Part shown: positions 6,662 through 64,000 of the stretch, piece by piece | Position numbering within the stretch: position 1 is the stretch's first letter | How the letters are laid out: each line of letters opens with the position of its first letter | Assembly: GCA_947034885.2 (NCBI GenBank) | Contig: OX344754.2 | Location: 13,596,501-13,660,500 of the forward strand | DNA: 64,000 nucleotides | Direction of reading: 5' to 3' | DNA from: Thuidium tamariscinum | Taxonomy: Eukaryota > Streptophyta > Bryopsida > Hypnales > Thuidiaceae | Made by a program: the position numbers and the translations under genes | The notes under the pieces: model-generated | What the model was told of the DNA's origin: nothing | What the model saw: only the letters and a program-made list of their open reading frames with translations | Databases searched by the model: none

Positions 6662-7427
6662 TTAAGCTTAAAGTGAACTCTGGCTTGGGTTGGTAGTTGG
6701 CTTCAACCTTGAAGCACGTTGACATCCAATGGACAATAAACAAATTGAAAATCTGTCTTCTTTCTTATTACTGCTTGAATGAAAGTTGTTTTCTATCCAA
6801 GGGTTTGATTTGGTGTTACTAGAGTACATATATATATTTCTAAAATTACAAATGTGGAAGTATGTCAAGTGGTGGACTAGGCCAAAATTGCATTGACTCT
6901 AGTTCAAAACCAAATTTGAAAAAATGAGGTCATAGAATTAAAAAAACTAAATTTTTTCAAAAGATCACTACATTTACTGCATCTCATTTCAAACCCACTC
7001 CAACAAATTTCACTCAAAAACTAACAATATTTTGCTTGGGATTGAATTGAGAAGGATTTTTGAAATTTCTCTTTCAAATTCATAGAGAAGTATTGGTGGT
7101 AGCATTGGTGAATCTAATCATAGAGATGAAATCTAAAATTCAAAGTCTACAACTTGGCTTTGTATCTTGATTCCAAAATTTTCTTCCAAATAGTACATTT
7201 ACAGTGATTTTTTCTGAAATTGGCAATTCTGGAGATGAGTCTTGATGCTGAGGGGATAAGGGTTCAAGGTCCTAAATGAATTTAACTTACACACAACTAA
7301 CTTAAATGAAAGTTGCCAATGGGGGTTCAACTCTTGGTTGGTTCTAACTTCCTCATGTCATAGAGTAACTTACTTTTACTGAAACTTCCCTCAATCAGAT
7401 GCAATAAGACCGATCTCCAATACCTTA
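6662..7427. other. AT-rich spacer, nothing recognised
   Basis: Spacer between the 270-bp inverted-repeat element and the giant palindrome. No open frame resembles a known protein and I found no repeat structure. Confidence 0.5.
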
Positions 7428-10400
7428 GAGCATCCCCACCGCTGCTCGCCAACAGGCGCACACTGGCTATTTGGGCGAGCCAGATTAAAAAGTTTGCCCC
7501 ACGGCACGCACAATCCCACTCAAAATCTGAGCGGCCACGGCCAAATTTAATCAGGACACGGCCAAATGGAGGGTGGCTGGCCGCGCCCACGAAGGGGGGT
7601 TGACTGTACTTTACACCCCAAAATCGAGGTCGACCCCCAGCTATCCCTGCAATTTGAATTTTTTTGCAATTTGAACTTTTCTTTAATAGTGAACTACTCA
7701 CAAGCAATTTCACTTGTATGAAAAACTAAAAATATTGTTTTTTCAATTCAATTGACACAAGTAAAGTATATTCCATTACTATTGTAACAAAAGTTACTTT
7801 ACTTGTATCAACTAAATGTGATGAACAAGCACATTCAAATTTCTTTGTGTTAGAGAAAGAATGAGAAGCTCCTTATATCCACAAGGAGTGGTAGGAACTA
7901 GAGACAATCCATGTGGGATATCAAAATCACAAAGAAGGAAGAGGAGCTCCCCACTCATAGTGTGAGGAATGTAGAAATTGTGTTAAAAACTGAAATTTCA
8001 AACCCCATTTATGCATAGTAAAACATGTTATTTAAAAAAACTTTGAAATAATAAAAGTTGGAAAATGAACACATATTTCATCTCCAAAAATCCGTTTGGG
8101 ATTTCAATTCTCCAATGAAAAGTTATGAACAAAATTGAAAGGGGGATTGAAAAGAAAACTTTTTTGACATTTCCAAGTATCTTTCAAATATTTTATCTTC
8201 AAACATTTACAATCACATGTTAGCAACACAATGCTCTAAAGAAAGAAATTTCAACTTATGCATTTGAATATTTTGTAATGAATTCAAATTGAATCAATCT
8301 ATTAAACTTTTTGATTTTGGCAAATATATTTCAACAATGATGCAAACAACTAGAAATTAGTTTGAATTGTAAAAATCTAAACTTATGTAATTAAGAATTG
8401 TATTTTTTATTGGAAATGATTTGAAGTGTTGATTGAATGCTTTGAAGATAACAAATAGTTCATATGTTTAAATACTTCAATTCACAACCATTTTAATTTA
8501 TTGCATTAGGATCCTTAGGACATACAAAGAGTGTAGTATGAATAGGACAAGAGATATGATTTTTTTTAAACATTCTCCTTGTACAAAGCATGATTGAAGT
8601 AGGAACAAAGTTTCATATCACTCATATTTAGCCAATAAGTTGCATTGCATGTATGGCTATAGAATTCTAGTTTTTAAAACCAATAAACTTTCTATTCAAA
8701 ATTTTCAAAGTTATAAAAATATCAAAACACCAAAAAGTGACATTTTGATTTCTAATTAGTTTAGGTTAACATATAATTGCACTTTGAATTCCCATACATA
8801 TTCCAACCATCCCTTTTTAGCAAAATAGTCCCATGTAGCATTCATATAATTCATTCTAGTCTTTATCCAAATTATTGCTCAATATAGATTAACCTCTTTA
8901 CAGATCCTCAATTTTATGAATTAGTTGAAATTTCTTTCTTTAGAGCATTGTGTTGCTAACATGTGATTCTAAATGTTTGAAGATAAAATATTTGAAAGAT
9001 ACTTGGAAATGTCAAAAAAGTTTTCTTTTCAATCCCCCTTTCAATTTTGTTCATAACTTTTCATTGGAGTATTGAAATCCCAAACGGATTTTTGGAGATG
9101 AAATATGTGTCTATTTTCCAACTTTTGTTAGTTCAATTTTTTTTTAAATAACATGTTTTACTATGCATAAATGGGGTTTGAAATTTCAGTTTTTAACACA
9201 ATTTTCTACATTCCCCACACTATGAGTGGGGAGCTCCTCTTCCTTCTTTGTGATTTTGATATCCCACATGGGTTGTCTCTAGTTCCTACCACTCCTTGTA
9301 GATATAAGGAGCTTCTCATTCCTTCACTAACACCTAAAAAAATTGGATGTGTCTTTCTATCAATTTTAGTAAAGTTTACTTGACTTACTAATAGAAATTG
9401 GTGAATTAACACTTCCAAGTTTTCAATGTTTCTAATACAAGGGAAGGGATTTTTTTCCTGACTCATGTATGGAAGCAAAGTGAATTTGAAAAACTGAAAT
9501 TGGAATTGTTTGTGGTTAAGTTACCAAGTTCATACTGCTTGGTAACTGAACCTTAAAGACATTTACTTCGCGTTTGTACTTGGCGCGTCAGCCGCGGGGA
9601 CGGGCAAAAACAGCGAGTCTCCACCCTCCAAATACTCCCTTCAAAAAACACTTGGCGCCCCTCTTTGGCGCGTCAGGCGTGGGGCTGCTCTTATGATAAG
9701 TTACCCCTGATGAAATCCTGGGAGATAAGAGCAGCCCCACGCCTGACACGCCAAAGAGGGGCGCCAAGTGGGTTTTGAAGGGAGTATTTGGAGAGTGGAG
9801 ACTCGCTGTTTTTTCCCTTCTCCACGGCTGACGCGCCAAGTACAAACGCCAAGTAAATGTCTTTAAGGTTCAGTTACCAAGCAGAGTAAATGAACTTGGT
9901 AACTTTACCACAAACAATTCCAATTTCAGTTTTTCAAATTTGCTTTGCTTCCATATATGAGTCAAGAAAAAAATCCCTTCCCTTGTATTAGAAACATTGA
10001 AAACTTGGAAGTGTTAATTCACCAATTTCTATTAGAAAGTCAAGTAAACTTTACTGAAATTGATAGAAAGACACATCCAATTTTTTTGGTGTTAGTGGAG
10101 GAATGAGAAGCTCCTTATATCCACAAGGAGTGGTAGGAACTAGAGACAACCCATGTGGGATATCAAAATCACAAAGAAGGAAGAGGAGCTCCCCACTCAT
10201 AGTGTGAGGAATGTAGAAAATTGTGTTAAAAACTGAAATTTCAGACCCCATTTATGCACAGTAAAACATGTTATTTAAAAAAAATTTGAACTAATAAAAG
10301 TTGAAAAATAGACACATATTTCATCTCCAAAAATCCATTTGGTATTTCAATACTCCAATGAAAAGTTATGAATAAAATTGAAAGGGGGATTGAAAAGAAA

Positions 10401-11934
10401 ACTTTTTTGACATTTCCAAGTATCTTTCAAATATTTTATCTTCTAACAATTAGAATCACATGTTAGCAACACAATTCTCTATAGAAATAAATTTCAACTA
10501 ATTCATAAAAAATATTTTGTAATGAATTCAAATTGAATCAATCAATGGAACTTTTTGATTTTGGCAAATATATTTCAACAATGATGCAAACAACTAGAAA
10601 TTAGTTTGAAATGTAAAAATCTAAACTTATGTAATTAAGAATTGTACTTTTTTTTATTGGAAATGATTTAAAGTGTTGATTCAATGCTTTGAAGACAAGA
10701 AATAGTTCATTTGTTTAAATACTTGAATTCACAACCATTTTGATTTATTGCATTAGGATCCTTAGGACATACAAAGAGTGTAGCATGAATAGGACAAGAG
10801 ATATGAATTTTTTTTTAAACATTCTCCTTGTACAAAGCATGATTGAAGTAGGAACAAAGTTTCATATCACTCATATTTAGCCAATAACTTGCATTGCATG
10901 TATAGCTTTAGAAATCTAGTTTTTGAAATCAAGAAACTTTCTATTCAAAATTTTCAAAGTTATAAAAATATCAAAACACCAAAAAGTGACATTTTGGTTT
11001 CTAATTAGTTTAGGTTCAACATATGATTGCACTTTGAATTCCTGTACATATTCCAACCATCCCTTTTTAGCAAAATAGTCCCATGTAGCATTCATATAAT
11101 TCATTCTAGTCTTCCTTCAAATAAGTGCTCAATATATATTAACCTCTTTATAGATCTACAATTTTATGAATTAGTTGAAATTTATTTCTATAGAGAATTG
11201 TGTTGCTAACATGTGATTCTAATTGTTAGAAGATAAAATATTTGAAAGATACTTGGAAATGTCAAAAAAGTTTTCTTTTCAATCCCCCTTTCAATTTTGT
11301 TCATAACTTTTCATTGGAGTATTGAAATACCAAATGGATTTTTGGAGATGAAATATGTGTCTATTTTTCAACTTTTATTAGTTCAATTTTTTTTTAAATA
11401 ACATGTTTTACTATGCATAAATGGGGTCTGAAATTTCAATTTTTAACACAATTTTCTACATTCCTCACACTATGAGTGGGGAGCTCCTCTTCCTTCTTTG
11501 TGATTTTGATATCCCACATGGGTTGTCTCTAGTTCCTACCACTCCTTGTGGATATAAGGAGCTTCTCATTCCTCTTCTAACACAAAGAAATTTGAATGTG
11601 CTTGTTCATCACTCATCTGTGTCAATTGAATTGAAAAACAAGCATTTTTAGTGTTTCATACAAGTGAAATTGCTTATGAGCAGTTCATTATTAAAAAAAA
11701 AATTCAAATAGGAGGGACAGCAGGGGTGTCAACCTCGATTTTGGGGTGCAAAGAACAGTCAAACCCCCTTCGCGGGCGCGACCAGCCACCCTCCATTTGG
11801 CCGTGCTCTTCCTAAATTTGGCCGTGGCTACTCAGATTGTGAGCTGAATTGTGAGTGCCGTGGGGCAAATATTTTAATCTGGCCCGCCCAAATAGCCAGT
11901 GTGCGCCATATGGTGAGCAGCGGTGGGGATGCTC
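7428..11934. mobile_element. 4.5-kb nested giant palindrome (foldback-like DNA element)
   Basis: The termini are reverse complements: the left end starts GAGCATCCCCACCGCTGCTC and the right end mirrors it, flanked by TTA and TAA. The left arm (7428-9694) and right arm (9725-11934) pair around a 30-base centre (9695-9724). Each arm contains its own inner palindrome: about 7848-8260 pairs with 8926-9332, and about 10095-10505 pairs with 11165-11585. A 0.4-kb module is therefore present four times in alternating orientation. The central 650 bp and both outer ends are GC-richer. No transposase is visible. GAGCAT ends resemble those of plant Harbinger-type MITEs, but the family is an inference. A roughly 50-residue frame (starting MGxEIS) stays open in three of the four module copies and is probably not a gene. 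Confidence 0.85.
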
Positions 11935-14900
11935 TAAGTTGGCAGGCACTTAGTTGGCCGGGGGGAGCTCTCCATTGCAACAAGACCAGTGGGATCACTT
12001 CACCTCAACATGGAAGTGACCCAAGGGATGGGTCATCAATTTGAGTGTCATGGCTGTCAGCTCTCAAAGTCAAGGACAACAACCGACAGGAACTTTGCTT
12101 AACTTCGTTGGAGTGAAATCACCCATCCTGATGAAATGAGTGATCTCAACCATGGAACTGACCTCACTGGGCTCACAACTTGCACAAATCACGGAGGGAG
12201 GGAAAGCAACACAAGGCGCTATATTACCTTACCTTGCACTGGAGTCATCAAATCACTTGAAGTTCAGAACACTCACAAACTTAGGTAGCCTAACTTAGTG
12301 TGTAATTTAGTTTAACTTGTCAAATCACAACCATCGGACTCATTTCATTTCCATTCCATCCAAATACAACTCAACTCAATCCAATTTGTAGGAAATGATG
12401 ACTCCGACTTGGGGGTGGCTTCGAAATCACTCATAGCCAATTAGATGTAAAGAAGGTAATACATAATTGTAGATTTTTGTTTTATTATATATACTTACAA
12501 AGTTCACACCTATATATGGGTGTGTTCATAAAAATTTCTCAAGACTAATTTGACAAGTATGTTCTATTTAAACTCACGTGGAAAGCCATAGCTGTAGTTC
12601 AAATTGTCCACGTTGAATATAAGCCTTCTACTTTCAAATTCAAATGTATTGCATGACATCAAAAAAATATCTATTAAAATAGAGGTTGTAATAATTGAAA
12701 GTGAGAAAAGTAAATTTCACAAATAGATGTAGTACATCATATCTCATTAAAGTTTTCCATCATTATTTTCACACAACAATAAGCAATCAACTTAGATCAT
12801 CTATTTCTTGAACAACACTAATCAATCAACATCAACCAATCATCACTTGTATAACAATAATCAATCAATTTTATTGTGACTAGTTTGGCATTGAATACAT
12901 TTACTAAATACCTCCAATAGACAAGTTTGGTTGAAATTATTGAATGTATTTATCCCCAAAGATTTATGACTATTGTGTCACATAGTCTAAATATTTTGTT
13001 TTAAATATGGCTCCTTCTAAACTATCAAATACAAGGTTTTAGCATATAGTTTGAACAATGAGAAATCTATTTAGTTTATTTTTCTATGGTATAATACAAT
13101 TGTGTTAATAGTGATTGTACAAAGCTATTAAATATAAAATTTAATTATGCATTTATTCAACTTTGATATTTGCATAAGAAGTAAAGCAAAATATATTTTA
13201 ATAGATTGGTTGTAGCCTTTCAATTCCAAATTTACAGCTAATGTCAATGCCCCCCCATTGGTATTGGATTTTTTTTATTCCGTCTTGTAACTAAAGAATT
13301 AAATTGAATGAAACAAACTAAGTATGAAATTCAACATGGCTTCATTTGTTTCAATTTCACACATGTCCATCATTAGAAATCCTGAACATTTTGTACAATT
13401 TAATTTCAAAGAACATTGTTCTTCATTTTTTCTCTATGTGCTCAAGATTGGAAATTTTTGACAATTTTTGTCAAATATGTCATTCCAATCATTTAGGGTT
13501 TCATGACCAAACTACTTTTCCTACAACTAGATTACATTAGTTTCAATCCTAAGAGTTTATTAAGATTTTCAATGGTGTTAAAAAATAAATTCATGATTGC
13601 ATCATTATTTTTACACTTTCTTGTTGAAGTCTCTATATTTTGTCACCACATGCTTATATATTATTAAAGTCATTCAAATTGTACAAATAATCTTGTGAAT
13701 TTGACAAACTAACTTTAAACCTTGAAGAGACTTTCCTATAGTTTTGAGGGGTGTAAGATGCATTTTTTTTAATACAATGTTGTATTTGAATGGAAAAATA
13801 AGCTTAAACTCTAACTATGTAATTGGTAGTATGTAGTTGATTTAAAATTTCAAGCTTGTTTTTGTATAGGAAGTTAGGTTATTTTGATGTTTTAATATTT
13901 CTTATAGACAATTTGAAAATTAACTATTGGAAGCTTTTACTTTTTATTAAACAAGGTAAATATTTGATTTTTGAGAGGCACATATGTACCATTTGTAAGA
14001 AAATAAATCTTTCTAGTTTCACTTTAATTTACAACTTTAAGCACACTTTTCCATTTTCACTTGATTTGAGACCAAAAAAAGGGATATATATTTGTTTTTT
14101 TTGACAATGGTTCAAATAAAAAATGAAAATTACTTTCATGATTTTTAGTTCTTTTATACTTTCAAAAAGATATATGTATTTGTATATATATGTATAAATT
14201 TATTTTCTTAATTCAAAAAATTAGACTAGTAGTGGTTGGTATATTGCACACATAAATATTTGCACAACCAAATAGTCCCCTAGAACCCTAAAAAAACATC
14301 TATTGTTGCATTTCAATAATTGCAAAATAGACTATTCAATGAATTTCATAGTTTTTGATTTGAACTTAAGTTTTTTGAAAGTGCATTTTAGGCTGCAATC
14401 AATTGTGTCACCTTCAATTCTTTTAAAACTCTAGTATATGCAAATTTTTAAAACAATGTGCTAAAAATAAGATGTATACATTTCTCTTCTTATAATCTCA
14501 CAATAACTCTTAAGCAATTTAACACTAAAAAATTAGTATTCTTACTAATAAAATAGCTCTCCAAACACTTATACAATTAGATTTTGAAAAAACAAACAAT
14601 TAGCTTCATTGGGAATAACTATAAGCTTATGTTTTTTTTAATAGAAAAAAGACACTTCAAAAAGTGTAGGCATTTAGGGATTAAAATGATTTTTTCAATA
14701 AATTCATAAAGTATAAAGTATAGGCGTTCATTTTATGTTAAACTCACGGGGTTTTGTGATAAGGTTTAGAGATTAAAGTATTAGGTCAAAATTTTTTAAT
14801 TGAGGTATTATTGTCTTTTTTTTGTTTTAAAATGCTAAAAATATGGATTATAGAAGATATTTTAAAGTATAATTTGGCAATTTGTAACCCCTTTTTCTAA

Positions 14901-17720: not shown

Positions 17721-17864
17721 TAAACTTTTTGTTTGAACCATTCTATTCTTCACTCTAATTGAATCTAAACTTTTTGTTTATACCATTTTATTCTTCACTC
17801 TAATACTCCTATAGGAAAATAATTAAGTTTCAAGCTAATTTTACAATAGACATAAATTTTCTTC

Positions 17865-19900
17865 CAATTTTTATTTACATTGTTACATTGTAGGAATTTT
17901 GCAATTTTGGCTATTGTCAATTTCAATTTGGAAGAAACTAATTGGGTTAGAAATTGATCTTGCCAAAAACAAGCCGGTACTTTAATCCTTTACTTCCTAA
18001 AAATTCATCATTTTAAGTTGTAGATTTTGATTGAGCATATTATAAAAAGGATAATTTAAATGAATTATTTTATTATATCTTTAGCTTAAATAAAGAACAT
18101 TGCATGTATTAGTTCAATAAATGATTATTGAAATAAATTTAAAAATCTTCAAATAAACTCTTCAAAATTGCTCAAAAAACATGAGGCCCAATTCGGGCTT
18201 CTTAGGAAATAAAGGGTTAAGTAATTGGGAGGTGCAACCGGTGACCATTGGAAACAAAAGCCAGATCTATTTTAGTGGAAGGAGGGCATTGACTGGAGGA
18301 TCTCCCGAACACGCTGGAACAGAATGTGACTGAAGCTCTGACCTCCCGCTGTCCTTTGCAGTAGTTCTGTGCACTCCCCTGAGGTGGCTGGCGGAAGTTA
18401 ACCGAGAGCCTCCCTTCGTGAGGGAGGGAGGCGATCGGCACGCAGGCGGGCTTGTCAGGGACTTCTTGCAATTCTCACGGGCCCGTCGGTGGGGGCTGCC
18501 TGCTCTTCTCGCTCCCCAGTAGCTTAAGCTTAACTGAGTTCAGCGTAGTTGGTGCTGGTGCTGGCGCGGGCTTCAGATGTTTCTGATGTGTCGCGCTTGC
18601 TGCTGCCGCTCTTAAGATGACGTCCGCCTCGGCCGAGGATGCGCGCTGCGCTCAGATCTTCGCGGCACCCAATTGGACGCCTCTCTCATTGTCATTTTTC
18701 TGCTCCGCTTGCAATTGACGATTAGGGAAACGCGCTGGCTCGGTCCCAGCTTTTGCATTGCCGCCACGGAGGACCTCTCTACCTCTTGGGCACGGCTGTA
18801 GGCTGATCGGGGCTTGCCATGGCCAAAGAGGAAGCTGCCACCACTCTCAGCGAGGTATTGTTGTGTGAATGAAATGCTCCCCTGCTTCTTCTCAGACGTG
18901 CACTAACGGTGTTGTGAAGTTCTGGAAGCTCTGTGTCGAAAAATGGGGGAGCAATTGTTGAAAACTCGTAGCACGCTGTGACCATTCGTCTGGGCTGTCT
19001 TTTTTGTGTTGTGGTCAGCCCCCTCTGGACTCGAAGGTGAAGCAGGCGCGCGAGGCGTTGGTGGGGATGGGGTTACCCTTGGAGTCGGTGGAGCAGGCTG
19101 TACAGAAAATTCACGGTGCGTAACAATTAGATGCTTTGATTTCGTTTTTTGGATTTCGAACGTCGTTTGAAGTGTTTACCCGCCTTGAGGTGTCCAGAAC
19201 TCTCAGAATGATCTGTTTTGCAGAATTTGGGGGTGACCTCAATGCTACAGCATCTTACGCCCTTGGCCTTAGCACTCCTCAAGCGGAGTGTATTGAAGAA
19301 CACCTTTCCGATGTAAGCGCCCGCCCTTTGGCTTGCTTTTCTACCAACCTTAGTCCAGCTCATTAGAGGTCATGTGACTAGGAGTTGTTCTTGACATTTT
19401 CCTCGTGTTTGTGATTGTATTCATATGCAGGATATGATTTCAAGTGACGAGGAAGCTGGGGAGGAGTCCAAAGAGAAGTGGATCCGGCCTCCAAGTCCCC
19501 AAGTGCAAACAGCATCAGAGGAAGGGTGGGTGGATCCCATCTGCAGGATCTTTCAGAATCCTCCTGCACCAGAAAACCTAGCGACATCATCGGTCCCAGC
19601 AGTGATCGTGAATTCCGTGGTGACTGTGGGAGCCGAGGCTGGTTGTTCGAGGCAGTGCTCTCTGGAGAATGCCACCAATGGAGAGATTGAAGCTGAAGGT
19701 CCTCCGAAACCTCCAGTTCATCTTCAACCGTTTCAACGGCGAGAGCGAGAGACGTTTTTCTTGGACATGGGGTTCCCGTTCGACCTTGTGCAGCGTGCCC
19801 TTCGTCACCATGGTATGTGCTTTCCTTCACAATGTAACCTTCTTTGTTTTCTTTGAATTCTCCTTAGCTGTATGGCATGTTTGAAGTCTTGTCACAGGAA
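17865..19900 (+). repeat. left member of a direct segmental duplication (DRM 5' part)
   Basis: The sequence from about 17865 to about 19900 is repeated in the same orientation from about 61970 to the window end, 44.1 kb downstream. The block includes 0.95 kb of upstream DNA, the 5' leader and exons 1-4 of the DRM gene. The left boundary is sharp, at the phrase AATTTTTATTTACATT. The right boundary cannot be set because the second copy runs off the window. Confidence 0.9.
18181..18818 (+). promoter_or_regulatory. promoter and 5' leader of the DRM gene, with an upstream ORF
   Basis: An abrupt GC-rich stretch precedes the DRM start codon. It contains an upstream ATG at 18617 that opens a 33-codon frame ending at 18718, out of frame with the main start at 18819. 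The upstream ORF could limit translation of the methyltransferase. In the duplicate copy near 62736 an 8-base insertion shifts this frame, so it is not conserved there. No clear TATA box was found. Confidence 0.45.
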
Positions 19901-22900
19901 CCTTATTGATTCTTAGTGGATCTTGCAGGTTTAGAAGCGGATGATTCTATTTTGCTGCAGTTCTTAATAGACTACAGCAAAGAGAATAGTGCTGCTCCAA
20001 GAGCTCCAAGAGCTCAACCCAACATAGATGCGGAAGCTGAAAATGAAGACAGTGATTCTGATGAAGATTTGAGGTTGTCAGTACGCCAGCTTGTTGCAGA
20101 GCGATCTATGAAGACTTCCGGTAAGAGCTACCAGTTACCAGAGGATAAGGACAGCGATTCTGATTCCGAGAATCAAGCAGAGATTCCATCGGATTTTGCC
20201 CAACCATCCCCTTTATGCAGCCGGGAAATTCCACAGAATGGAGGTTACAAGGCTGCCATGCAGAGCTTAGGCTTCCCACTTCCTTTGATAGAGAGAGCTG
20301 TCCAAGAACTGGGACAAGGGGTAGAGTATGACATGCTTCTAGAGTATCTGCTCTACCTGTCCGCCCAGCCCGACCTTGAAGCGTCTACATCCAGATGCAG
20401 AGAGGACAACACACTGGAGAAGCTCACGAGAGAGTTTCAGTTCCCTACTATGGCTGTTGAGAAAGCCATGGGCATTTGTAGTGAGAATTTTTTCTGCCTT
20501 GTGACTTTGGCATCTTCATTTTGCTTCTATAATGAAACCTCGAAAATGTTAGTTCAATGCCTTTTCTTGCTTGCTCTTGACGCTGTTTGAAAATTCACAA
20601 GCATTTGGAGCGTTTCTGATATTTTCTTGTTGAGGGTTGCAGAGACCCCGTTGTGGAATGCATCCCCCGAGCAGATCATTGACGTGGTTGATTTTCTTGC
20701 TGCTCACATGGAAGACCTACTTGAGGTATTTAATTATATTCTGAAAGTAATTGCACCATTACTTCAATTTTAGTCGGTTCTCTCTCAAAAGCTAAGTTTT
20801 TCGAAATGTTTCTAGTGTGCGTACTACTCTGACAGTTCTCATTTCGTGATTTGCAGGAAGATCCCTTTGGAGGGAAAAGCAATCTTCCCGATTCCGATGA
20901 CAGCGGTACTGAAGAAGAAGAAGATGACTTTTTGGATTGGGGAGAAGAAGGCCTTTCTTGGAAGCAGGAAGGAGGGGGGAAGAGCGGTAAGCGAAAACTT
21001 GACGAGAGGGGTAAGGAACCAGCTCACAGTGGCTGGCCCGGGCGTCCAAAGGGAGCTGTCAGTGGTGGTCGATTGAAGAAGTCAACAAGTGTATCCAAGT
21101 AAGCTCTTTGTGTTAGGATGCTGTTCTTTTTTAGGGTTTTGTTGCATTATCATTTATGTTAACTTGGGTTCACTAGCTAACATTTAATGTGGGTGGAATG
21201 TCAGGGCTAAAGTTTCAGTATCTCCAGCCTCGACTGAAATCAACAAGCAACGAGGAGCTATTGGATTTGGACTTCCTGGCCATCCAGTTGTGAAGCAACG
21301 GCATTTGAAAGAAGATGTGAAAGGAGCTCCCTTCTTCTATTTTGAGAATGTAGCAGGGATGCCGGTGGGCGAGTGGAAGAGAATTCAAATGCATCTATTT
21401 GACATTGAGGCTGAGTTTGTAGATGCGATGCACTTCTCAGCATGCCGGCGATCTCGGGGATACATCCACAACCTCCCGATAGAAGGAAGGAAGAAACTAA
21501 TCAAAGATCCTCCGATGACTATCATGGATCTCATGCCGCAGACAAAGCCGTTTTGGCCAGAGTGGGACAAGAGAACGAAACTGAACTGCATCAACACAGT
21601 GAGAGCATCGGAGTTTTTATCGAAGAGGCTCGGCATTGTTGATGGAACCGGGTACTTCCTTTTGATATGTTTGTAATTCTGTCTTTTGCATAGTTTGAAT
21701 GAGTGCTAGGTGTGCATGTTATTTAAATTTGATCTCCATCATTGTTCATACAGCTTCTGAAGATTATTCAAAAACAACAGCTGATTCCTTTTGATAATGG
21801 TTGTTCATAGTGGAATTGTTTCTAATCAGAGACTTGTGTATGGATTGCTATGACTTCCACCTTTGACTGCTTTGTTGGGGGTATGCTTCTAGAATAGCCA
21901 CGATGATGATCCAAAGTTTATATGGTGGCAATTGCGATACTTGTGATAGGACTCAGAAACTGCAGCTTAGCATTGAGGAGCAAAAGAATTATCTGAAATG
22001 GTGCTGCAAGCTGAACCTTGTGTGGACTTCCCCGAACATCCCCAGTCCTGTCGAGGCAGATGAGATTGAGGTAAAAGCTACACTTTCTGTGCATTATTGT
22101 GGGCTGCACCCTGTTTTATATTTTGATGTTGCTATTGCTTGTTATGTATTTTTGATTGTCTTGAGGACTAATTATACATGTCTAATACACTCGATCAATA
22201 TTTTGTTTTCCAATTTGTTAGCAATTATGCAGAAAAATATACATGCCTACCTCATATTTGTGATTTGGAAAATGTGACATTAATTGTATTGATTAGAATT
22301 AAGTTCAGTGTGCAAAAGTGGTTCTGAATTTGACCTTGATACCTTAGAAGTGGAGGTAATTTGTTTCAGGACTCTGTGATATGGAAAATGTGACGTTAAT
22401 TGTATTAATTTGAATTAAGTTCAGTGTGCAAAAGTGGTTCTGAATTTGACCTTGATATCTTAGAAGTGGAGGTAATTTGTTTCAGGACTCTGGTCGAACT
22501 ATGGCTCTAGGTCGAACTATGGTAATCTGTTTCAGTTCAACCTGTTTTAACTCTGAGAGGTTGAGTGGTGCCACTTGAAACTGATATTTCGGTTGGGTTG
22601 TGTGTGGATGATGCAGGCAATGTTGGGGTTCGATAAAGATCACTCCAGGCACTGTTTCAGCCATACAGCACGGTACAAAGCGTTGGGGAATAGCTTTTCT
22701 GTGTTCACGGTTGGTTATCATTTTTCAGTTTTGAAGCCCTTGTATCCGAAGGGGATCAAGGTGTTGTCATTGTTTTCAGGGATTGGAGGTGCCGAAGTAG
22801 CGCTTCACAAGGTGGGGATCACTCTCAATGTAGTGGTGAGCGTTGAGATTGAAGAAGGTGCTCGCCGCTGCTTGCAGACATGGTGGGCTTTGACCAAACA

Positions 22901-23150
22901 GAGAGGCCATCTGGACTTGGAGTACCATGATGTGAGACAACTCACAAGAGATGTCCTCACCAACCTCGTAGAGAAGTATCGCGGCTTCGATTTCATTGTT
23001 GGTGGGAGCCCATGCAACAATTTCACTGGTAACAACCGTCACACACGCATTGGTCTTGATGGTGAACACTCTACTATGTTTTTTGAGTTCTCACGTATTG
23101 TTGCGACCGTCCGTGAGCTCACCATCAAGTTACCAGAAAATCAGCGGTGA
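18819..23150 (+). CDS. DRM2: DRM-type de novo DNA (cytosine-5) methyltransferase with UBA domains
   Basis: Plant enzyme of RNA-directed DNA methylation, acting in the nucleus. I read ten exons: 18819-18854, 19019-19115, 19224-19312, 19431-19812, 19929-20480, 20643-20725, 20857-21098, 21205-21651, 21893-22070 and 22617-23150. They join in frame to 879 residues. Four UBA-like stretches follow each other at about 18-74, 180-222, 308-347 and 363-413 (for example MGFPFDLVQRAL), then an acidic region near 430. The permuted catalytic domain spans about 534-870, with YIHNLPIEGR, RTKLNCI, KALGNSF, the AdoMet loop LSLFSGIGGAE (752-762) and last the catalytic VGGSPCNN with Cys835. This is the DRM order, with the C-terminal motifs first. 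Arabidopsis DRM2 is shorter (626 residues) with fewer UBAs. The start ATG has good context (GCCATGG). The gene looks intact. DRM versus DRM1/DRM3 subtype cannot be settled here, but the catalytic Cys argues against a DRM3-like inactive form. Confidence 0.93.
22264..22495 (+). repeat. 116-bp tandem duplication in DRM intron 9
   Basis: Two adjacent copies, period 116 bases, both containing TTCAGTGTGCAAAAGTGGTT and differing at only a few positions. They lie wholly within the intron between exons 9 and 10, so the protein is unaffected. The high similarity suggests a recent event. Confidence 0.8.
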
Positions 23151-26862: not shown

Positions 26863-28392
26863 ATTGTCCCTATGCCAATATACAAGTACATCCACAGCTC
26901 TTCATCAACCCTCATCTCCCCAAATTGCCATGTATTGGGGAAAAGGCTATAGTCATAGGTATGTCGGCCCAATTGAATCACTCAACTAAATTTCTTTGAT
27001 GACGGGCACCAAATGAAATGCTTGGAACCTACTAAAAAAAATACTACACATGATCTAAAGACAAGCAGAGAAGATGATTTGGACAAATGGATCAATATTT
27101 GAAATCATCAAAAACTTTGGGTAGGGTAGAGTAGGATAGGGCAAGTTGGAGTTAGTGATGAATACCACACAAAGATTTTTCTTATGTAAACATTTTCAAG
27201 ACTAAGGAAGGATCTCTTTCATGAAATGGAGACTCATTGGAGGGAATAAATTTCTAAGCTTACATTTATGGTTTCCAAAGGCATAAATATGCAGGCACTT
27301 TTTGACCTAGTAATGGAAAGGACTCCAAAGTGGTCTTGAGGCCATATGCAAGAATGTTTGCAACCTTTTTTTATTTATTTTTATCAAATTGCTCAATCTA
27401 TGTATTTGCTAATATTTCCATAATCAACTGCAAAACTAATGGCATAGTAGCTTTTGATTTTTCTAAGACTTATAACTTAAAATAATTGCAACTCTCAATA
27501 AGAAGTTGTGCCCTGCTAAAGTAGGCTTTTTACCATTGCAATGGACTTGTAGTAATTAAATATGTCATTTTTCAAGATTTTGTCTCCTGATCAGGTCTAT
27601 ATGTCAAATTGAAAATTAATTCTTTAGGATATCTTGATGATACTATTAGCTCCTTTTCAATAGCCACTACTAGCATTGCTTGTAGATTAGGCTTTACGCA
27701 TTCTATTTGTTTCCTTATATGAACCTCACAAACATCAATTTTATGAAATTGACAAAATTTCATAGCTTTGAAGTTTTTTGGGATACATGATGTGATTTCA
27801 TAGAGTCTTGTATTAATGAAAGTCATAATTTTGGGCACTCATTACCATGCCAATTTAATTACATTGCTGATCATATTTCTAATTATAATATTGTTGAATA
27901 TTGTAAAAAAGAGATCTAGTGAGTGAAGGTGAATATATTATATATGACAAGCACTTTCATTATTTACAACAATTAGAGAGGTTATTGGTAAGACTTGAAT
28001 TTGATAAGTTCTACAAAAAGAATTTCCAATGATTTTCATTAGCTAAAGTACAACCATATATTGTTATAAACTTCATCCTATTCATTACTATTATTTCATT
28101 CACATTCATGCAAAATTAGGGACCTTGATGTAGGTTGCAATCTCATTTCTTATACTGCAAAAAATGATTAAACTAACTCTTGCAAATTCATATATAAAGT
28201 GACTTTTTGAATGCAATTGTTGTGGTAATTGTTATTGTAGAATAATTGTAATAAACTCTCTAATTTTGTGAGAGCCCTTTTATTGGCTACTAATGTTTGC
28301 GGATGCAATAAGGAATTGAAAACAGTGTTTGAATATACTTACTTCAATTAGTAGTGATGCCATTTTGTTGAATAAGGAAAAAATACAATTGT
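26863..28392. other. AT-rich intergenic DNA, no gene seen
   Basis: Short frames only, none recognisable; no repeat or RNA gene seen. Confidence 0.5.
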
Positions 28393-28395
28393 AGC

Positions 28396-28617
28396 CACTA
28401 CAAGAGAAAGGGGTGTTTTAATTGAGTTTTTAAGTATAGTCCTAAACATCAAACTATAAGTAATGACTTTTAAGGCAATTTTCAACAATAATTTACTAAA
28501 AGTACATGTATATCTAATCAATTTTTGTTGAAAATTGCCTTAAAGGTCATTACTTATAATGTGATGCCTAGGACTATACTTAAAAACTGAATTAAAACAC
28601 CCCTTTCTCTTGTAGTG
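28396..28617. mobile_element. 222-bp CACTA-type MITE with 3-bp target duplication
   Basis: Nearly the whole element is one hairpin. The ends are CACTACAAGAGAAAGGGGTG and its reverse complement, flanked on both sides by AGC (28393-28395 and 28618-28620). CACTA ends plus a 3-bp duplication are the known hallmark of the En/Spm (CACTA) superfamily. It has no coding capacity, so it depends on a transposase made elsewhere. The arms match closely, so the copy looks fairly young. Confidence 0.9.
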
Positions 28618-28620
28618 AGC

Positions 28621-30031
28621 TTCAAATCCACAAGGCTAGTCTTCAATCATATCCATAATGTTGTTTCAACATTTGTCCACCAAAGCATCTACTTACATGC
28701 CTTCTATACCTCAAGCTTGCACTTTTTTTATTTCAACAATTTTCCTTTTGGTCAAAAGGTATAGAGAGCTTTAGTTCTCCTTTGTATTTAGTATAGAGGT
28801 TGTGACATTCAATAATTCAAATCAATTCATCAACATTTGTCCTTGATCACAAAGAAATTCTAGCATGTAGGGTGCTTGTTATTAGAAGTAAGGGAAATAT
28901 TTGCAAGTCATATAAATTGTATTGTATAATTGTTTTTCTATGTGTACAATTAGTTTTCACTTTACAACCTTTTGACTGAATGTATAAAGGAATTTGTGAT
29001 ATGTACAACAAAGTCCAAAAACTAGGCAAATTTTTGAGAGTTGTAATTCCTTAAGGCTTAGGGTCTTTTAGAATTGAAAAACATCATTACTTATGAAGTG
29101 TTGTAGAGTAAGTGTGCCATTAACTACACATTGCATAAAACCAGACATTGATTGGACAAGAATTGCATAAGAATTGAAAATTGGATTGTGATTTGGGAAA
29201 TGCTATGAAAATTAGTTTTCTTGCCTACCGCACAAGCACTACACACTATGTAGTAAAGGGCTACAAAGACATTCTTGTTAAATTTTAGATTTAGTAACTT
29301 GAAGTTGAAATAACAATTGCAAGAAGAAATCTTTGTATGCATTTTTTGGGATTTGAATCTTAATATGGCATTTAATAATAGAGCCAAGTTTGAGAGCATA
29401 CAAGTTGCGTAATATTGTAGAGGAGGATTTGAATTTTGCTTGTGCGGTGATTGGCATGTCTACCTTAGTCCAAAAAATCACTTAGGTATAGAAATTTCAA
29501 CCATATAATCTTTTAGTGTATGTGTAGTAGATGATGCAAATCAAATTTGGAGTCATTTGGCCATATAGATTGGAAGATTGTCATGTTTTAGTGTATAAAG
29601 AGGATTTTGAAATTGTCCTAGCACCAATACAGAGGTGAAATTCAATTTCCAAACATATTCAAATAAAATTTTCTTAAATATAAAGTCCTTAAAAAGTAGC
29701 ATGAAGACACATTGGTGAAAAGCATTTTGGACTCGATTTCTTTCTACTAAAATGAATCTAAAGCTCAAGAAGTTATGAGTGATTTGCATGTTTATGATTC
29801 CATATTGATCCAAGAAGTTATGAGTGAAAAGTCCTTAAAAAGTAGCATGAAGATACATTGGTGAACTTCAAAACAACACAAGGACACTTTTGGATCCACT
29901 AGGTAGTGAGGGCTTAAAGATAGTTCCTTCAAACTACACTAATATACTCTATCAATCAAAGAACCTTAACAATATATTCACTTTTTAATATGGTTGACTA
30001 CACTTCATACAACAAAAGTGAAATTCAATGT
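28621..30031. other. AT-rich intergenic DNA with a small local duplication
   Basis: No gene recognised. A phrase containing GTCCTTAAAAAGTAGCATGA occurs at about 29685 and again at about 29831 with its neighbourhood (AAGTTATGAGTGA), indicating a local tandem-type duplication. Confidence 0.45.
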
Positions 30032-59037: not shown

Positions 59038-61965
59038 AAAATGGTGCCTAAAAAAGTTTGGTCCCCACATTTGAAGTCGTGTGACATAAGTATCTTGCAA
59101 AAAAGTTTAATGCTTCAACTATAGTTGCCTTCTCAACTTCAAAAAAAGTCATGCCCAAAGTGGCGGGGACTTTCCAAATAACTCCAATGTTCAAAAAAAC
59201 TTTTCTTGTGGGACCTTGATAATCACCTACAAAATCATATATTGAAAAAACTTGAATCTTATTTAAGCATCAAAAATCCAATCTTGAAAATACTTAATTA
59301 TGGTTTTTAGATCAAAGATTTTGTGTAACTTGTGTCCTTTGCAATCTTGATTTTCTATAGTGTTGAGGGCCTTTAGAAACATGTCTAGCAACAACTACAA
59401 GGTGCTTCATATGGGCAAGGCCAAGCTTTGCAAAGAAACCTTGGCCTTGCCTATGTGAAGCACCTTGTAGTTGTTGCTTCCTCAAATAGTAGGATTCACT
59501 ATGCACTTGGGTGCTATGAAGATTTGTTCATGAAGTGGGACCTTAGGTTTCCTTGTTGAGGATATTTGAGTTGAAGGTATTTGGGTTGAGGAATATGTTT
59601 CCAGAGTCCAATTGTTGTGACCAATCTTTAAATCATCAAAAATGTCAAAGTTGATAAGATTCACAAACTACACTCAAATATGATAATTTTTGCATGAATA
59701 TTGGATGACTTAATGACAACATATTCCTCATGGGGAAAACTTTAGGAGTTTTTTAGTAGGACAAAGTTAATAATCGACATAATCAATCAACAAAAATATG
59801 CTAGAAGAATGCATTTGCAATGTTGGCAATCAAAAGTGATGTTAAAAGTAGGGATTTAAAGATGAAATAGATTCCCACTAGTTGAAGTTGGAGGCCATTT
59901 TACTTGAGGTGGCAAAGTTGTCATCACAAAATGTAATTGCACATAATGACAATGAAGTGATTGTAAGTGATCTTGATAAAATTGAGTTGAAGTATTATTA
60001 CAAAACTAGTTTTTTAATAGCTAGACATGAGCAACCTACTAATCTCAAGTATCTGCTTTGGCTTACTTCCAATTATGTTCTTATAATTGAGTAGAATTTA
60101 TCTTCTCAATACTTCTATCTTCAAAGATAAGTCAACAACCTCAATCTAGACCTACAAAACAAGAGTTCATGTTGACTTGTAGTCTCCAAATCCTTTGCTC
60201 CAATCCAAATCTTAAAACAGAAAAACAAGCTTGGAATCTTGAAGAGAGATATTCAAATTCAAGTGTTGCTTGATCACAGAAGATGTCAACTAAAAATCAC
60301 TACATATATTGTGAGTTCAATGGAGTATGTAAATGGAAACTTGGCAAATTGATAAATTGAGAAACTCTCCAACCATTCTTCTATCCCTACATGCTTATAC
60401 TTTTGTACAATTGTACATTTATACTCTCCAAAAATAATAATAAGATAAAATTGGATCACAAAACACAAGTCCACCATTTATAACTAACAAACAACTAAGT
60501 TTGTCCTTGTAGCACTGGCTTGTTTTTCGTCAAGCTTCTGAGGTATGCACCGCCTTTCCTTGTCACAATACAATCATTGAATTGATCCACAACAACGTTT
60601 TCAAACAAGTGACCACATCCAATCTGCAAATCTTTCTAAACATCAAAGATCAATGTGTACATACTTCTTGTGAAGTATTTCTGTAGCATACCTTATACAA
60701 ATGCACTCACCGTCGATCGAGGATGAGCAAACCTAAAAATCAACATCAAAGCCTAAAGTAATAAATATTACGTCCTCTATTCGATTGGGATAACACAAAG
60801 TGATGGATTGCCAGACCTGATACTTCACTTTGATCTTCATGAATGGAGGCTACGACTAAACCTAAGAATTTACCTCCAAGTATCTTCAGATATGGCATGC
60901 TGTTGATGCACTTGTAGAATTAGACCAAGCATTTGCTTTATTTCGCACAACAAAATTGTTAGTATATTCACCTGCAATTTCATAATGAATGCAAAAGAGG
61001 TTGCAACTGCAAAGAGGCATACAGCTTAAAAATTATAGACACAAAATTTACAGTACCTCAGCTTAGAGATGTGAGCACAAGCTTCAAAGTCCATCAAATG
61101 TTGCCTGCCTGCATACCATTAAACCACAACAAAATGACAACGACTGAAAATGTTGATTGGTTCGAAAATATTAATCAATAGTTCAATCGGTTCAAAAAGG
61201 ACGAGTGTTAGGTTCCAAAATTGGATTTGCAGGAAGCTAAGAGTAGAAGAGGAGTTGGAAAAGAGAGGATTTCACCAACCTTGTCAAAGCTCATATAGAA
61301 TCTTCAACAGCAACTATACAAAATTTTCCATCAGAAACCTCACATAAGACTCAAATTACAAGGGATTGTTGAGAGAAACCTTGCATTTGCAAATGGAAAC
61401 CAGCAAGAGCAAGTAGGAGTCATCAAAGTTTCTAAAGCATAGAAAATGAACAACAAGCAAGTCCAATAAACCACTATACTCGGATAAGCAAGCACCACAT
61501 CTTGTAAATGTCAAAACCTTCATTGCAATCCAAACATGTCCTCTAGAGACACATCACCACAAAAGGAAACCATTGTCACCACACAAATTGGAACTCACCA
61601 CTTGGTCAGCCGGCAGCCCCAATGCTCCCACAACTCACAAATCCCACAAAAACATCAATCTCACAATGCCCTAAAATTCATATTCCACCACAAAAGGAAA
61701 GGCACGGTGTAGAGGAAAAGTTTTGTGGCAAAAATTTCCTAGTCAAGATGGTGTGCTCCCGAAATCCAATCTGAATGCGATAGCATTTCTTGCTATAAAT
61801 ACCATGATGATCAATATAGACGAGAAGAAAAAGAAAGCAAGAGAATTAGCGACGGCGAGAAGAACATTGTCATCCTATTGTACCGTCAGAGCAATGCTCC
61901 TCTTCCTCAAGGTGACTGACACTCCGACACCATCTCCTAAAAACATAGACTGTCTACATTCTTGG
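59038..61965. other. intergenic DNA, hairpin but no recognised gene
   Basis: AT-rich to about 60480, then moderately mixed. An open frame at 61723-62001 (+) is lysine- and threonine-rich and not recognised. The notable item is the hairpin at 59388-59477 (separate entry). Confidence 0.4.
59388..59477. ncRNA. microRNA-like hairpin (candidate)
   Basis: Two 38-base arms (59388-59425 and 59440-59477) are reverse complements with two mismatches, separated by a 14-base loop. The left arm begins GCAACAACTACAAGGTGCTT. GC is higher than in the flanks. The size suits a plant precursor that Dicer-like enzymes could process, or a very small MITE. The near-perfect pairing would suit a young locus or siRNA hairpin rather than an old conserved microRNA; I recognise no known microRNA in it. 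Confidence 0.4.
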
Positions 61966-64000
61966 CTACAACCAATTTTTATTTACATTATTACATTGTA
62001 GGAATTTTGCAATTTTGGTTGTTTTCAATTTCAATTTGGAAGAAACTGATCAAGTTAGAAATTGATCTTGCCAAAAACAAGCCGGTACTTTAACCCTTTA
62101 CTTCCTAAAAATTCATCATTTTAAGTTGTAGACTTTGATTGAGCTTATTGTAAAAAGGATAATTTAAGTGAATTATTTTATTATATCATTAGTTTAAATA
62201 AAGAACATTGCATGTATTAGTTCAAATAAATGATTATTGAAATAAATTTAAAAATCTTCAAATAAACTCTTCAAAATTGCTCAAAAAACATAAGGCCCAA
62301 TTTGGGCTTCTTAGGAAATAAAGGGTTAACTGATTGGGAAGTACAACCAATGACCATTGGAAACAAAAGCCAGATCTATTATAGTAGAAGGAGGGCATTG
62401 ACTGGAGGACCTCCACAAATCTCCCGAACATGTTGAAACAGAATGTGACTGAAGCTCTGACCTCCCGCTGTCCCTTGCAGTAGCTCTGTGCACTCCCCTG
62501 AGGTGGCTGGCGGAAGTTAATCGAGAGCCTCCCTTCGTGAGGAAAGGAGGCAATTGGCACGCAGGCAGGCGAGCTTGTCAAGGACTTCTTGCAATTCTCA
62601 TGGGCCCGTCGGTGGGGGTTGCCTACTCTTCTCGCTCCCTAGTAGCTTAAGCTTAACTAAGTTCAGTGCAATTGGTGTTGGTGTTGGCGCGGGCTTCAGA
62701 TGTTTTTGGTGTGTCGCGCTTGCTGCCGCTCTTAAGATGACGTCCGCCTCGGCCGAGGATGCGCGCTGCGCTTGGATCTTCACCGCACCCAATGTCCCAA
62801 TTGGACGCCTCTCTCATTGTCATTTTTCTGCTCCGCTTGCAATTGACGATTAGGAAAATGCGTTGGCTTGGTCCCAGCTTTTGCATTGCCACCATGGAGG
62901 ACCTCTTTACCTCTTCAGCATGGCGGTAGGCTGATCGGGGCCTACCATGGCCAAAGAGGAAGCTGCCACCACTCTCAGCGAGGTATTGTTGTATGAATGA
63001 AATGCTCCCCTGCTTCTTCTCAAACGTGCACTAACGGTGTTGTGAAGTTCTGGAAGCTCTGTGTCGAAAAATGGAGGAGCAATTGTTGAAAACTTGTAGC
63101 ACGTTGTGACCATTCGTCTAGGCTATCTTTTTTGTGTTGTTGTCAGTCCCCTTTGGACTCGAAGGTGAAGCAGGCGCGCGAGGCGTTGGTGGGGATGGGA
63201 TTACCCTTCCAGGAATTGGTGGAGCAGGCTATACAGAAAATTCACGGTGCGTAACAATTAGATGCTTTGATTTTGTTTTTGTGGATTTCGAAAGTTGTTT
63301 GAAGTGTTTACCCGCCTTGAGGTGTCCAGAACTCTCAAAATGATCTCTTTTGCAGAATTTGAGGGTGACCTCAATGCTACAGCATCTTACGCCCTTGGCC
63401 TTAGCACTCCTCAAGCGAAGTGTATTGAAGAACACCTTTCCGATGTAAGCGCCCGCCCTTTGGCTTGCTTTTCTACCAACCTTAGTCCAGCTCATTAGAG
63501 GTCGTGTGACTAGGAGTTGTTCTTGACATTTTCCTCGTATTTGTGATTGTATTCATATGCAGGATATGATTTCAAGTGACGAGGAAGCTGGGGAGGAGTC
63601 TAAAGAGAAGTGGATCCGGCCTCCAAGTCCCCAAGTGCAAACAACATCAGAGGAAGGGTGGGTGGATCCCATCTGTAGGATCTTTCAGAATCCTCCTGCA
63701 CCAGAAAACCTAGCGACATCATCGGTCCCAGCAGTGATCGTGAATTCTGTGGTGACTGTGGGAGCCAAGGCTGATTGTTCGAGGCAGTGCTCTCTGGAGA
63801 ATGCCACCAAGGGAGAGATTGAAGTTGAAGGTCCTCCAAAACCTCCAGTTCATCTTCAATCCTTTTCAACGGCGAGAGCGAATGACATTTTTTTTGGAAA
63901 TGGGGTTCTCGTTCAACCTTGTGCAGCGTGCTCTTTGTCACCATGGTATGTGCTTTCCTTCACAATGTAACCTTATTTGTTTTCTTTGAATTCTCCTTAG
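61966..64000 (+). repeat. right member of the direct segmental duplication (continues past the window)
   Basis: Matches 17865-19900 in the same orientation, including upstream DNA, leader, exons 1-4 and introns. Small insertions and deletions distinguish it, for example about 10 extra bases near 62408 and 8 extra bases near 62792. Substitutions are strongly skewed to C-to-T and G-to-A in this copy. Confidence 0.9.
62947..64000 (+). pseudogene. damaged partial copy of the DRM methyltransferase gene
   Basis: The first four exons of the DRM gene recur at 62947-62982, 63147-63246, 63356-63444 and from 63563, with all visible splice sites kept. Exon 2 has one extra codon (GLPFQELVEQ against GLPLESVEQ), so the first UBA still reads through. 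In exon 4 a one-base insertion near 63860 (CAATCCTTTTC against CAACCGTTTC) shifts the frame just before the second UBA; the downstream segment MTFFLEMGFSFNLVQRAL is intact only in another frame. The catalytic half, if present, lies beyond the window. A functional truncated product cannot be ruled out, but the frameshift and the transition-biased changes argue for a pseudogene. Confidence 0.82.

Follow-up and report, generated by a model that had tools for sequence, protein, structure and literature searches.

Foldback transposons such as Tetris and Galileo of Drosophila carry long inverted repeats around a core, and MITEs are usually much shorter elements (under roughly 800 bp) that reach high copy numbers. 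Tourist-like MITEs of PIF/Harbinger are nonautonomous, choose TWA targets, and are moved by PIF/Harbinger transposases, according to the part of a review that deals with them (PMC12595863). The closest published parallel to the elements described here is MtPH-A6-4 of Medicago; the sections of that report consulted here describe 3-bp TTA/TAA duplications, nonautonomous members, oppositely oriented subterminal repeats in certain members, and inversions of the internal region, which were attributed to subterminal tandem repeats (PMC2213677). The same sections present MtPH-M-2-IIa as a composite of two related elements (PMC2213677).

We analyzed a 64,000-nucleotide window of the Thuidium tamariscinum genome, in which positions 7428 to 11934 are almost certainly two separate insertions, pointing in opposite directions and separated by 38 bp, of one nonautonomous PIF/Harbinger-type foldback transposon family. 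The family resembles Tetris and Galileo in its long inverted repeats around a core, a likeness of structure, but its target duplication and tips point to PIF/Harbinger. It shares TWA target choice, nonautonomy, and probable dependence on PIF/Harbinger transposases with Tourist-like MITEs, but we did not assign it to the MITEs, since its length (2.2 kb), long inner arms, and ~30 copies contrast with their short length and high copy number. The 3-bp duplications, nonautonomous members, opposite subterminal repeats, and internal inversions are all like those of MtPH-A6-4, and internal inversion in PIF/Harbinger elements has published precedent. However, the subterminal repeats described for Medicago are 60-bp tandem arrays, whereas those found here are single 450-bp arms, and the tip (GAGCATCCCCAC...) is without the G(N)5GTT motif used for the Medicago search (sections consulted of PMC2213677). 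A literature search yielded no report that we recognized as describing this foldback family, which is not proof of absence.

Structure of the E1/E2 locus

The original prediction treated the locus as a single nested element whose two arms, of about 2.27 and 2.21 kb, fold on each other around a 30-base loop. Its outer limits, 7428 and 11934, were borne out. Its arm lengths, however, match two transposons of 2263 and 2206 bp (E1 and E2), and we found two pairs of ends and two target duplications rather than one pair and one duplication for the whole 4.5 kb. The features are as follows.

7425 to 7427, unstranded: target site duplication TTA of E1, left (flank comparison)
7428 to 9690, plus strand: E1, the first of the two foldback transposons, 2263 bp, with the modules arranged A-M-S-M'-B (module matches; ends GAGCATCCCC...GGGGCTGCTC)
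7428 to 7811, plus strand: A end of E1, type A1
7811 to 8267, plus strand: left M arm of E1 (self-comparison)
8268 to 8911, plus strand: core S of E1, forward relative to the A-to-B direction
8912 to 9370, minus strand: right M' arm of E1 (self-comparison)
9371 to 9690, plus strand: B end of E1
9691 to 9693, unstranded: target site duplication TTA of E1, right (flank comparison)
9694 to 9725, unstranded: host DNA between the insertions, 32 bp (the predicted loop); 9694 to 9716 recurs in host context in L069, a diverged paralogue of the target region
9726 to 9728, unstranded: target site duplication TAA of E2, left
9729 to 11934, minus strand: E2, second foldback transposon, 2206 bp, inverted; minus-strand order A-M-S(flipped)-M'-B
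9729 to 10052, minus strand: B end of E2
10053 to 10510, plus strand: M arm of E2 (self-comparison)
10512 to 11156, plus strand: core S of E2, in the same direction as in E1 and flipped relative to E2's own ends
11162 to 11611, minus strand: M' arm of E2, 97% complementary to 10061 to 10510 (self-comparison)
11612 to 11934, minus strand: A end of E2, type A2
11935 to 11937, unstranded: target site duplication TAA of E2, right

Read along the plus strand, the interval of 38 bases that separates E1 from E2 consists of TTA, the 32 bp, and TAA. The center of the locus is near-palindromic, as predicted (arms 9535 to 9694 and 9725 to 9884, 94% identical, with 30 nt between them at 9695 to 9724), but the supposed loop lies in host DNA. 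Self-comparison also recovered the predicted four occurrences of module M in alternating orientation (7811 to 8263 plus, 8912 to 9370 minus, 10053 to 10510 plus, and 11162 to 11611 minus), which are ~92 to 98% alike in most aligned blocks and 87% alike in a single ungapped block, far beyond chance. The 644-bp core S, in contrast, is a direct repeat (8268 to 8911 and 10512 to 11156; 94% by self-comparison), which points the same way in E1 and E2, since it is flipped within E2. When E1 was compared with reverse-complemented E2 in 100-column windows, identity was 85 to 98% outside the core and 45 to 60% from ~8226 to 8904. Since S is directly repeated and matches this poorly in inverted orientation, the proposed pairing of 2.2-kb arms fails for ~650 bp per arm, and a fold of the whole element was not confirmed. 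The inner arms do match better than the outer ones, but this gradient reflects A ends drawn from two subfamilies, together with inner modules that are more conserved and diverge at different rates, not growth from the center.

No plausible coding region was found between 7000 and 12500, where the longest stop-to-stop frame (132 amino acids) runs out into the flank, and a search of 7300 to 12060 against Rfam returned 0 families at the gathering threshold.

Copies in the genome and target site duplications

The genome searched comprises 363 Mb in 19 contigs, encodes transposases of the Plant_tran type, which suggest a plant, and contains at least 35 matches to S, at least 51 to the A end with the start of M (7428 to 7900), and at least 34 to B, counts that take in small self-matches and split copies and are lower bounds for the repeats. 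A total of 27 of the 30 S loci (L009 to L038) were analyzed, leaving out L036, which duplicates L034, and the partial L037 and L038; L035 is without A, so that 26 copies were kept. The order A-M-S-M'-B is common to these 26 copies except the rearranged L017 and L034, and copies with both ends are ~2.2 kb long. Counting partial copies, the family has ~30 members plus one diverged relative. This relative (L070, 1316 to 2404; ~72%) comprises M and S with a single convincing M arm and contains no open reading frame of 100 amino acids. It could be a form that predates the foldback arrangement, or a truncation.

Identical 3-bp flanks were found in 18 of 21 both-ended copies (12 TTA, 4 TAA, and 2 TGA), compared with 8.8 expected on shuffling. 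The TTA and TAA flanks are the TWA duplications typical of PIF/Harbinger, while the two TGA duplications fall outside this usual target and count against reading the locus as two PIF/Harbinger insertions. In two of the three exceptions, L023 and L032, the flanks disagree because a later insertion split off the B tail, and the displaced B tips read TAA, in agreement with the left TAA; in the third, L033, the A tip is damaged. Five of the 26 copies stand outside the flank count: L017, L026, and L034 (TTA on both sides) and L021 and L031 (one end seen only). The A tip (GAGCATCCCCACCGCTG) and the B tip (GAGCAGCCCCACGCCTG) agree by eye at 14 of 17 positions and thus form short terminal inverted repeats. 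Long inverted arms surround the core, as in foldback elements; they are subterminal, and the A and B ends of most copies are alike at their tips only.

Both tips also bound separate, shorter elements whose TWA flanks agree, whereas a control pattern read backwards gave 0 matches. Several elements bounded by the B tip have convergent tips and measure 479 bp when the flanking TWA is counted (for example, C1:21063137-21063615, C4:7579725-7580203, and C10:2271247-2271725); these apparently form a uniform short element family.

Relationships of E1 and E2

The nearest copy to E1 is L010, which lies on the same contig at a distance of 12 Mb (A, 96.6%; S, 97.4%; B, 97.0%). In comparison, E2 matches E1 at 83.3% in A, 95.0% in S, and 95.1% in B, which ranks it 25th of 25, 2nd of 25, and 8th of 20, respectively. 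By S alone, E2 is the second nearest of 25 copies to E1, which counts against separate insertions. A tree of A, S, and B with 25 rows joined E1 to L010 (100/100) and placed E2 in a nine-row group without E1 (100/99), with the B tails of L023 and L032 extrapolated past the later insertion and their branches possibly lengthened as a result. Judged from these alignments, the histories of E1 and E2 are separate.

A query composed of the two outer flanks and the spacer matched a diverged locus, L069 (C6:22.31 Mb). In L069, E1 is absent and the left flank reads on across its junction through the first 9 bases of the spacer (132 of 182 identical), and a second piece (25 of 27) spans the E1 junction and 23 spacer bases. 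This match identifies the spacer, by homology, as host DNA. L069 has an insert of its own of ~270 bp (452 to 720), which starts 9 bases past the E1 junction and is flanked by repeated CTTGTGAT, and it lacks ~84 bp, the stretch in which the E2 site would lie. Because of this missing stretch, the insert, and the divergence of the locus, the empty site applies to E1 only, and imperfectly.

Two pairs of ends, 3-bp duplications, a paralogue without E1, differing closest relatives, and mixed core orientation have thus been demonstrated at this locus, which is ordinary except that its core segment S has been flipped more than once within the family. The overall inverted symmetry and the better match of the inner arms would also fit a single composite transposon of 4.5 kb, either built up from the center outward by inverted duplication or with arms kept alike by gene conversion, as the original prediction had proposed. 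We consider this very improbable, since each half has target duplications of its own, E1 is closer to L010 than to E2, host DNA lies in the middle, and core S is in direct orientation; moreover, no second pair of E1 and E2 was present among the matches listed in the A, S, and B searches, for which repeat counts are lower bounds. Stepwise growth from the center is rejected, because the closest relative of E1 lies 12 Mb off and E2 belongs to another subfamily, and conversion from the center is not supported. A false inverted duplication introduced during assembly seems less credible still. Long palindromes misassemble easily, but such an artifact would give near-identical arms, whereas the two halves differ by ~5 to 17% depending on the module, fall into different subfamilies, and have separate target duplications, and ~30 copies occur at other loci.

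The spacing requires a different consideration. Under uniform insertion of 27 copies, ~7e-5 pairs within 38 bp would be expected, so that such closeness is unlikely by chance and counts against two plainly independent insertions, although the locus was chosen for its closeness. It is quite possible, if somewhat short of probable, that of the two independent insertions the first attracted the second to the spot, either because these elements hop locally or because they prefer TWA sites where related elements end, and that chance did not place it there. At L060 (1480 to 1520), the related tip of another element abuts a family copy in inverted orientation, with a TAA common to both. However, when the flanks of the 26 copies were scanned out to as much as 650 bp in either direction, extra tips besides the E1/E2 pair and the own ends of three copies were seen only 253 bp from L026 and 627 bp from L032, and E2 is not a close copy of E1 and is therefore not a recent local hop. 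A preference for such insertion sites is possible. Whatever brought them together, we read E1 and E2 as two separate insertions, a reading that removes a spurious "giant nested palindrome"; the target duplications and the nearest relatives of each half are the check that settles such cases.

Core orientation and probable arm copying

The core is forward in 19 of the 26 copies, flipped in five (E2, L019, L030, L031, and L032), ambiguous in one (L017), and doubled in one (L034). Parsimony required four orientation changes on the 25-row tree, with L017 scored as flipped. The A-end tree (24 rows, with L017 and L034 dropped) gave 4 changes versus 4.6 on shuffling, and the B-end tree (19 rows) gave 3 versus 2.9. 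We therefore rejected clustering of the flips on the tree, where they scatter about as random labels do, but many forks are unsupported. At least two separate changes are well supported, because E2 is the sole flipped member of its supported group and the remaining flipped copies fall in another supported group. The likeliest cause of the varying orientation is recombination of M with M', the inverted arms of 450 bp.

Two copies have been rearranged more extensively. L017 (669 to 2979) has two A-type ends and arms of 828 bp, both ends included, that are 99.9% identical, making a near-perfect foldback that probably arose when one arm was copied in its entirety onto the other. In L034 (1061 to 2929), the core is doubled head to head into a 1.87-kb palindrome (97.5%). 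Both structures point to the copying of one arm onto the other. Such homogenization was rejected as a rule for the whole family, in which the identity of M and M' (~450 bp) within copies (median, 95.2% in 26 copies) is only slightly above that between copies (median, 93.6%); the low within-copy value of L034 is an artifact of its doubled core. Each arm of E1 has a better match in the equivalent arm of L010 than in its own partner arm. As read from the table, 5 of the 26 copies (L012, L017, L022, L025, and L032) have two arms that are more alike than either is to any other arm.

The family is thus low in copy number and of PIF/Harbinger type, and its interest lies in an invertible core. Its members are few and well preserved, and among them inverted cores, copied arms, and newly formed palindromes are visible side by side. 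A broader proposal, which we regard as rather unlikely, is that the hairpin shape has been rebuilt repeatedly, with the core flipping, an arm or even a whole end being copied onto the other, and the core doubling into a full palindrome, possibly during transposition. If transposition were the occasion of this rebuilding, whether because templates are switched while a gap is repaired or by way of a hairpin intermediate, for instance, the core orientation of each new insertion would be close to random, and the family would preserve a natural record of the origin of foldback elements.

Proposed mobilization and possible small RNAs

The tips and the mostly TWA duplications argue for a PIF/Harbinger-type element moved in trans. 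In the mechanism that we propose, the short inverted tips would be recognized by a transposase supplied in trans, presumably one of the PIF-type transposases of this genome, and each A-M-S-M'-B copy presents long inner inverted arms (~450 bp) enclosing a noncoding core of 644 bp, which M x M' recombination could flip. A total of 150 DDE_Tnp_4 matches to PIF-type transposases were obtained from the 150 scored of 331 candidates. These 150 were compared by eye with the listed tips (93 of 93 A tips and 100 of 102 B tips), and none was seen within ~7 kb of one, the nearest pair being 7.6 kb apart on C7. This comparison therefore yielded no autonomous partner for the tips, which counts against this explanation. 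L071 represents a repeated group of 458-codon transposases, and the 4.5 kb examined there contained no match to the modules or to the tip pattern.

The original prediction also held that a transcript would form long duplexes. The inverted modules that this calls for are present, and M-S-M' of E2 (10072 to 11560) is predicted to fold as one long hairpin, with a minimum free energy of -763 kcal/mol, a value obtained without shuffled controls of the same length. According to a review, MITE transcripts that form hairpins serve as substrates for 24-nt small interfering RNAs (siRNAs) (PMC12595863). It is plausible that the arms of E1 and E2 would yield siRNAs if transcribed, and siRNA silencing may then follow.

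Elsewhere in the window, a 2-kb direct duplication (93%) joins 17864 to 19867 with 61972 to 64000, and near it lies a C-5 cytosine methyltransferase gene (22557 to 23150), which we take to be DRM-like. Additional small self-palindromes (80 to 88%) at 28389 to 28625, 59387 to 59478, and 798 to 876 are probably other miniature elements.
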